The notes under the pieces: model-generated
The model's input: the letters and a program-made list of their open reading frames with translations, nothing else
What the model was told of the DNA's origin: nothing
Databases searched by the model: none
NCBI GenBank assembly: GCA_902528415.1
Contig: CABZSR010000002.1
Location: forward strand, 62,001 to 126,000
Length of the DNA stretch: 64,000 bases
Direction of reading: 5' to 3'
From: an uncultured SAR116 cluster alpha proteobacterium
Lineage (GTDB): Bacteria > Pseudomonadota > Alphaproteobacteria > Puniceispirillales > Marisalimonadaceae
Position numbers and translations under genes: made by a program
Part shown: piece after piece, positions 34,743 through 35,502 of the stretch
How positions within the stretch are numbered: position 1 is the first letter of the stretch
How the letters are laid out: each line of letters begins with the position of its first letter

Positions 34743-34806
34743 TATTTAACATATTAAATTTATAAGAAATAGTCATTTAATATTTTGTTTATCAAACAAT
34801 CAAAAA

Positions 34807-34843
34807 GAAAAGGACGAAGGATGGGTGTCCTTCGTCCTTGCTT
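34807..34843 (-). terminator. Intrinsic terminator of the DUF1127/small RNA transcript
   Basis: A perfect 12-base stem (34810-34821 with 34828-34839) with a six-base loop, followed on the minus strand by a run rich in T (TTTTCTTTTT). It ends the minus-strand transcript that contains the DUF1127 gene and the downstream hairpins. Confidence 0.92.
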
Positions 34844-34935
34844 TATCAGATGACATAATAGCTACCTTGGGGGAGGATTGAGTTCTAAGCTATGTCACCA
34901 TCTTTAATCAATATTCGAGGGAGGAACGAATATTA
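34810..34935 (-). ncRNA. Cuckoo-type (CcsR-like) small RNA downstream of a DUF1127 gene
   Basis: Read on the minus strand after the DUF1127 stop codon, there is a hairpin AATATTCG-loop-CGAATATT (34934-34910) whose nine-base loop is TTCCTCCCT, then a second, bulged hairpin (GACATAGCT with AGCTATTATGTC, 34896-34852) with CCTCCCCC in its loop, then the strong terminator. Two stem-loops presenting anti-Shine-Dalgarno CCUCCC motifs, directly behind a DUF1127 gene, are the defining layout of cuckoo RNAs/CcsR in Rhodobacter and other alphaproteobacteria, where they are processed from the DUF1127 mRNA under stress. One such RNA unit is seen here, not a tandem array. The exact ends are not known. Confidence 0.8.
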
Positions 34936-34948
34936 ATACCTTAAATCT

Positions 34949-35203
34949 TTATGCAGCTTCCTTATCGTCAATTTTGTTATCTTGTTTAATTGTGTTACTC
35001 ATACCTAAGCTACCTGCTGGGAAGTCAACAACATCTGTTGCATTATAAAAATCACCATTTAATACTTGTTGTTTTGTATATCCAATATCGGCTAATGTAC
35101 GCTCATCTAAGCTAATTAAAGCTTGTCTTGTTCTATTAATAGCAATCTTTTCAAATACTGTTGCAATAAATGCATTTAATTTAGTTAAAAATGTCTTTTC
35201 CAT
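34949..35203 (-). CDS. DUF1127-domain small protein (CcaF1-like)
   Basis: Protein of 84 residues. The core RTRQALISLDERTLADIGYTKQQVLNGD (about residues 24-51) is the Arg-rich DUF1127/YjiS domain, which binds RNA in characterised alphaproteobacterial members such as CcaF1. An N-terminal amphipathic stretch precedes it, and an acidic tail follows. It is co-transcribed with the downstream cuckoo-type RNA and shares its terminator; in Rhodobacter this pair is induced by stress sigma factors. Confidence 0.9.
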   Translation of the reverse strand: MEKTFLTKLNAFIATVFEKIAINRTRQALISLDERTLADIGYTKQQVLNGDFYNATDVVDFPAGSLGMSNTIKQDNKIDDKEAA

Positions 35204-35502
35204 CGTCTATTATTTTCTTTCTAAAAATTATAAGAATTATTTATTTGTATATTACATATACGGCAAACAAATAAGAAAGAGAACATAGGTAAATGGAAAA
35301 TGATTATTTCCAAAATGGAAACATTTAACATAATTATAACATAATTGACCCTAATCAGGAATTAATGTGGCTGGATTATTACTGATTTAAAGTAGATAAT
35401 CGACTTCATTAAAAATTATTTTTTAAAATAATAAATAATAAAATTTGCTTAAGTTAATTTAACATATAAAGTATTTTTAAAGCCCTTTAAAGGAGAACTT
35501 AT
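35204..35502. other. Intergenic region between divergent genes
   Basis: A 299-base, very AT-rich gap between the DUF1127 gene and the ExbB-like gene. It must hold promoters for both. No clear sigma-70 or heat-shock type element, tRNA or small open frame was recognised. Confidence 0.6.

Follow-up and report, generated by a model that had tools for sequence, protein, structure and literature searches.

Related systems

The cuckoo/CcsR literature, as excerpted in PMC10253847 and PMC3927594, describes under the name CIN1 a DUF1127 gene that is followed by hairpins with anti-Shine-Dalgarno (aSD) loops and by a terminator. In Rhodobacter sphaeroides, CIN1 consists of a short DUF1127 gene (ccaF1, RSP_6037), the CcsR1-4 RNAs in its 3' untranslated region (3' UTR) and a Rho-independent terminator (excerpts of PMC10253847 and PMC8625941). 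The CcsR RNAs interact with Hfq in this organism, according to an excerpt of PMC8307010. The CcsR RNAs are further marked by processing that depends on RNase E and CcaF1 and by induction under stress. CcaF1 is described as binding RNA and other DUF1127 proteins as binding protein (PhoR), a function in which CcaF1 complements them; RNA binding is tied to the Arg-rich members of the family (PMC12501420, in excerpt). The cuckoo or alpha-r14 RNAs of the Rhizobiales (SmelA075, SmelA099 and NfeR1) combine variable stems with an aSD loop of the type CCUCCUCCC (excerpts of PMC3927594 and PMC10746234). In the titles and abstract openings of the literature on DUF1127 and cuckoo RNA no SAR116 study is named, and a literature search returned no paper joining Hfq and SAR116; Reinkensmeier and Giegerich 2015 and the primary papers on CcaF1 and CcsR are known to us through papers that cite them.

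The locus described here lies on the minus strand of a 64-kb stretch of DNA, called the window, by which the whole stretch analysed is meant. The GC content of the window is 31.8%, and the source assembly has a size of 1.72 Mb and a completeness of 72.8%. The locus is probably a riboregulatory cassette of the CIN1 kind, in which a DUF1127 gene is combined with a cuckoo/CcsR RNA. Like CIN1, it has its RNA elements directly 3' of a short DUF1127 gene, and these are closed by a Rho-independent terminator. Like the cuckoo RNAs, it presents an aSD loop on a variable stem. Unlike CIN1 of R. sphaeroides with its four RNAs, it has two hairpins, one of which is partly masked; its protein is acidic, and Hfq was not found in its family. 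The Rhizobiales cuckoo RNAs, as excerpted, are trans-encoded and have three or four hairpins, whereas here a 3' UTR carries one or two. The idea that the cassette may work like CIN1 is well supported by its anatomy, and full membership in CIN1 or in the cuckoo RNAs is not claimed, in view of the hairpin number and of Hfq.

Anatomy of the cassette

An earlier note on this DNA listed a DUF1127 gene, two CCTCCC hairpins and a terminator, and all of these are real, as confirmed by Pfam, by the folds and by a terminator scan. The gene (34949-35203) encodes an acidic protein of 84 residues with the C-terminus KEAA and just passes the Pfam cut-off for PF06568 (24.1 bits against 23.3). Hairpin 1 (34907-34937) begins 11 nt after the gene and is identified by its fold and by covariation. 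It has an unbroken 11-bp stem, which includes one G-U pair, and the loop TTCCTCCCT, also written UUCCUCCCU, with the aSD core TCCTCCC at 34919-34925. The loop had been described as a nine-base loop on an eight-base stem; this hairpin exists, and the eight pairs are the inner part of the 11-bp stem. Its folding energy is -8.3 kcal/mol (z -5.8), and it is the most stable hairpin in the 64-kb window among those that have a stem of at least 5 unbroken bp and CCTCC in the loop. Because the 3' end of the 16S rRNA reads GGATCACCTCCTTT, the loop of hairpin 1 is a copy of the aSD sequence. Of the 56 occurrences of TCCTCCC in the 1.72-Mb assembly, the two at this locus, 48 nt apart, form the sole pair on one strand with a spacing below 50 nt.

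Hairpin 2 (34849-34899), which is seen in the folds, has a 10-bp closing stem and an apex, TCCTCCCCC, at 34869-34877. In the minimum-energy and consensus folds a 3-bp CCU/AGG helix forms inside the UCCUCCCCC apex, and the aSD of hairpin 2 is therefore partly closed. Folded alone, hairpin 2 has a z of -0.44, and 61 of 200 shuffles fold equally well or better. On these two observations hairpin 2 is not a clean cuckoo hairpin. A cuckoo RNA consists of two to four hairpins in which CCUCCUCCC is unpaired every time; the window has TTCCTCCCT in loop 1, and the TCCTCCCCC of hairpin 2 is partly paired.

The cassette ends in an intrinsic terminator (34801-34839), which consists of a 12-bp stem (34810-34839) and a T-rich tail. 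The terminator stretch has a z of -5.9 when folded. The scan finds two terminator-like sites, one per strand, which share one inverted repeat; shuffles contain 0.1 on average. The RNA region of 149 nt folded whole has a z of -3.98. In the window an EamA transporter gene lies beyond the cassette, and by sequence the same holds for several relatives; in other relatives the cassette precedes an open reading frame that starts with MDDIKK, MDDF or similar.

Conservation of the hairpins

All 23 copies of the cassette in an alignment share the loop-1 core TCCTCCC without a change, and the stem around it, 89-90% identical, shows changes on both sides in three base pairs. The structural support for hairpin 1 across the copies is good. 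The check on loop conservation that the earlier note had asked for thus has a positive outcome, the core of hairpin 2 being 97% identical. The full CCUCCUCCC motif is found in loop 1, in the form CCTCCTCCC, in 16 of 22 aligned relatives. CCTCCTCCC is missing from loop 1 of the window and of L015, L017, L018, L019, L020 and L052, and the window is the only copy with a 3-base gap. The description of the RNA as cuckoo/CcsR-like, in what is the CIN1 layout, is largely right, and one of the corrections it needs concerns the shortened loop 1 of the window.

The stem of hairpin 2 is 96-99% identical and is as conserved as the core, so that the contrast between a conserved loop and a variable stem, which is typical of cuckoo RNAs, is limited to hairpin 1. 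The structural support for hairpin 2 across the copies is modest. The terminator stem is 99% identical and its pairs never vary. In the consensus of the 23 copies 99.0% of the cells are paired, compared with 98.0 in shuffles and 27-55% in slid structures. The covariation statistics that follow refer to shuffles of the 23-copy alignment that do not preserve relatedness: four pairs have changes on both sides, whereas shuffles have 1.4 (four is attained in 2 of 500) and the structure slid by +1 has 3; 11 cells have such changes, compared with 3.6 (0 of 500); and the covariation score is 0.097, compared with 0.077 (0 of 500). Further pair types in this alignment are not above shuffles (170 of 500).

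An unlikely alternative is that the hairpins are a mere structured 3' UTR, which shields the DUF1127 mRNA from 3' exonucleases and whose loop has no targets in trans. The position of the hairpins between the stop codon and a strong terminator suits such a shield, as does the conservation of the hairpin 2 stem, which, together with the weak fold and masked aSD of this hairpin, also speaks against a riboregulatory cassette. An invariant loop-1 core on a varying stem is, however, difficult to reconcile with a shield, and it is one of the arguments for riboregulation.

In the window every Rfam 15 family stays below its gathering score, also when the stretch of the locus is searched with E values up to 10. 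The same holds for nine related loci, among them the CcsR-like L130.

Distribution and linkage

Relatives of the DUF1127 protein are present in 35 of 151 genomes and, the window's own genome included, in 20 of the 40 genomes of the genus. Among 32 named loci that encode a relative with 43-92% identity, 24 are labelled SAR116 cluster, the other eight being labelled alphaproteobacterium, proteobacterium or, once, Cryomorphaceae; the window itself is probably SAR116 as well. The contig labelled Cryomorphaceae (CATIQX010000167.1, L052) carries a SAR116-type cassette and is probably mis-binned. Each same-genus copy that was inspected has the same two hairpins and the terminator downstream. A covariance model of the RNA (R1) finds matches in 21 of 136 genomes of the order, namely the same 20 members of the genus and G041, and all 23 strong matches adjoin DUF1127 genes. 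As 22 of these 23 matches are the model's own training sequences, the search is informative in two respects: it finds the second copy in G025, which was not used for training, at 148.5 bits, and it has no hits elsewhere. Five weak matches on the opposite strand of the same loci (31.6-34 bits) reflect the inverted repeat in reverse and were disregarded. In the remaining 20 genomes of the genus, which include G031 (100% complete), G014 (99%), G022 (93%) and G009 (90%), neither gene nor RNA was found. This co-occurrence of gene and RNA is a further argument for a riboregulatory cassette.

The gene at 34949-35203 is the sole DUF1127 match in the assembly, and the cassette had been called single-copy, which holds for this assembly, incomplete at 72.8%, but not for the genus: G013 (L004, L034) and G025 (L011, L111) carry two copies each. 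The two copies have differing neighbourhoods, of types that are found singly elsewhere.

Outside the genus the element changes its form. In g2 and g4, sister genera within the family, a single hairpin carries the CCTCC repeat; its stem is unrelated and the terminator differs too. These unrelated stems likewise support riboregulation. Within the order, CCTCC lies at most 120 nt past the DUF1127 stop codon at 53 of 70 loci, compared with 4.0 expected from the background of the loci and 13.6 from shuffles; the 70 loci, placed by match coordinates, come from 69 genomes and leave out G048, G052 and the second G013 copy, which is aligned as L034. Of the 16 SAR116-order genera examined, 10 have one or more DUF1127 genes that are followed by CCTCC at this distance, and in genus g8 the combination is found in just one of six genomes. 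The cassette had been thought to be an isolated extension of the family; it is less isolated than that.

The minimum-energy folds of the 53 CCTCC loci contain one aSD hairpin in 40 cases, two in one case (G064) and none in 12. Of these 12 loci, 7 are from g17 genomes, in which TTTCCTCC, or in G102 and G125 a near variant of it, lies a few bases past the stop codon. At the g17 loci L075, L077-L080, L082, L083 and L086, TTTCCTCC or a close variant is followed at a short distance by a terminator-like repeat, and seven of these eight are without a predicted aSD hairpin. Judged by their sequence, the g17 loci are a minimal form of the element. The 12 hairpin-free loci count against a riboregulatory RNA. 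They argue against a protective 3' UTR as well, together with the retention of CCTCC behind DUF1127 in the 10 genera.

DUF1127 is found in 146 of 385 sampled genomes of the class. Among the best 30 loci, which were fetched, 15 list a CCTCC hairpin, most of them being GC-rich and the count having no chance control; L130 and L147 were used. L130 is a clear CcsR-type array that is built like the present cassette and repeats TCTCCTCCTCCCT in its loops, and L147 is similar. The shared plan of L130 again favours a riboregulatory function. When 24 genomes, of which 20 lack the cassette, were searched with CCTCCTCC, each had 18-53 sites; the control of this search says nothing because the pattern is identical when reversed. 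The cassette-free genomes may contain an unlinked aSD RNA.

The protein and the upstream block

The DUF1127 protein of the window has a pI of 4.9 and three Arg residues. Three of the four other g1 or g3 copies for which the pI was computed have values of 4.8-5.2, the fourth, L017, having 8.0; the copies of other genera are basic in 6 of 7 cases computed. An acidic protein with three Arg residues, set against the Arg-rich RNA-binding DUF1127 proteins of the PMC12501420 excerpt, argues against a riboregulatory role.

Most of the short DUF1127 proteins of SAR116 have AA or VA as their last two residues: 52 of 53 at loci with CCTCC and 10 of 17 at loci without it (p 1e-4, relatedness ignored). The C-terminal end in the window (34949-34960) is of this AA/VA type, which resembles a C-terminal degron of the ssrA/ClpXP type.

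A conserved block, TTTCCATTTTGGAAATAATnATnTTCCATTTACCTATnTTCTCTT, is seen at 35275-35321 in the alignment of upstream regions and is a candidate promoter or regulator site. It is present in 18 of 20 aligned regions, the contigs of the other two stopping short of it, and the sister-genus loci have related sequence. The block contains a repeated TTCCATTT and a GGAAATAATnATnTTCC dyad, with which it would be a possible regulator site. It also contains TTG and TAT, which start 26 nt apart and were compared with the RpoHI/RpoHII motif of another DUF1127 gene, in which TTG is at -35 and TAT at -12 (excerpt of PMC10673084). An RpoHI/RpoHII promoter is a feature of CIN1, for which the block is at best a candidate here. 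A scan for sigma-70 promoters found 6 compared with 5.8 in shuffles and is uninformative.

Hfq

No genome of the genus (0 of 40) matches the Hfq model, so that the Hfq association of the CcsR RNAs was not found here. In the order 66 of 136 genomes match, none of them in family f1 (handles up to G057), and the Caulobacter and E. coli controls were matched. Hfq is thus found in 0 of 54 f1 genomes and in 66 of 78 others (Fisher p 2e-25, the 78 being counted by handle number and relatedness being ignored). A diverged Hfq may lie under the detection limit in family f1. What is new, on the sequence evidence, is that an aSD cassette is kept in a family where Hfq was not found. As Hfq is a partner of CcsR in Rhodobacter, this result is an argument against riboregulation.

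The same result can be used in favour of another explanation, in which the mRNA of the DUF1127 protein is controlled by that protein through binding to its CU-rich loops, with pairing in trans secondary or absent. There is no Hfq found for the role, gene and RNA are linked, and an excess of CcaF1 disturbs maturation of the ccaF1-CcsR transcript from which it is itself made (PMC8307010, in excerpt). Such autogenous control is quite unlikely, since the loop matches the aSD sequence and is not an arbitrary CU motif, the protein is acidic, and targets in trans are reported, in excerpts, for CcsR (FlhR mRNA, PMC8307010) and for NfeR1 (PMC7143759).

Candidate targets

The pattern GGGAGG-N3-11-ATG gives 35 matches in the assembly, at 33 distinct sites, and the reversed control gives 19. 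Seven sites pass as gene starts (an open reading frame of at least 170 aa, with fewer than 40 open codons upstream). They belong to a MaoC hydratase, PhyH, a galactarate/altronate dehydratase, TRAP DctP, Peripla_BP_6, SBP_bac_5 and the acetaldehyde dehydrogenase ExaC (908 bits, cut-off 900). With the loops treated as free strands, pairing at these seven starts is predicted at -12 to -21 kcal/mol and at the DUF1127 gene's own start at -0.8 to -2.2. Predicted targets of NfeR1 are mainly transport genes (excerpts of PMC10746234 and PMC7143759). The GGGAGGA-led starts, such as those of the solute-binding proteins and ExaC, are possible targets, and their regulation by the loops is plausible.

GGGAGGA-N2-8-ATG occurs 183 times in the 33.5 Mb of 20 cassette genomes and 205 times in the 34.2 Mb of 20 cassette-free genomes (p 0.10), and several of the same sites occur in cassette-free genomes. 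The density of such starts is independent of the cassette and hence gives no sign of target co-evolution, an idea that was rejected, the trend being slightly opposite to enrichment. Target prediction at G-rich sites, which had been suggested, yields the seven starts, but the sites do not follow the cassette. Independence of this kind is a point against riboregulation and in favour of a structured 3' UTR that merely protects the mRNA.

The loops nearly copy the 16S tail and are predicted to pair better than it does at six of the seven candidate sites. They might thus act as a general brake on translation, in which the hairpins, as a soluble aSD, would compete with 30S subunits for Shine-Dalgarno-led mRNAs at large. 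An ordinary AGGAG leader, in the one example computed, pairs weakly with the loops (-6.2 to -7.3 kcal/mol), and GGAG, AGGA or GAGG is found at 17 of 60 crudely called open reading frame starts in the window; both make a general brake very improbable.

A possible mechanism

Besides the arguments given above, a riboregulatory cassette is favoured by layout and fold, by the covariation counts, by the excess of CCTCC behind DUF1127 in the order, by the match of the loop to the aSD and by the predicted pairing with the seven starts. If the cassette is riboregulatory and of the CIN1 kind, its action can be described as follows. A single transcript would start upstream of the DUF1127 gene and end at the terminator, with a 3' UTR that would bear one clean and one partly masked aSD hairpin. 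If CcsR is taken as the model, the hairpins would be freed by RNase E and would mature with the help of the DUF1127 protein. The loops would then pair with G-rich ribosome-binding sites of the GGGAGGA type and lower the translation of those mRNAs. The DUF1127 start region would be exempt from this pairing, because it contains no GGAGG. If the absence of Hfq from family f1 is real, the cassette would work there without Hfq.

It is conceivable, and we offer this tentatively as a rather doubtful extension, that once Hfq had been lost in this family, the DUF1127 protein joined with the aSD RNA of its own 3' UTR in a self-contained, co-inherited module. The protein would replace Hfq as partner of the RNA, and the module would tune nutrient uptake and aldehyde oxidation through the GGGAGGA starts.

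Implications

The pairing of DUF1127 with an aSD RNA is now placed in a marine order, in which it takes graded forms: two hairpins, one hairpin and the bare motif. Rfam 15 misses this family in every locus tried. The SAR116 genomes offer a natural case of aSD RNAs that persist where Hfq was not found. The presence of the cassette in such genomes makes it possible to test whether DUF1127 proteins are RNA partners or work through proteins alone, and whether Hfq is required by cuckoo RNAs.
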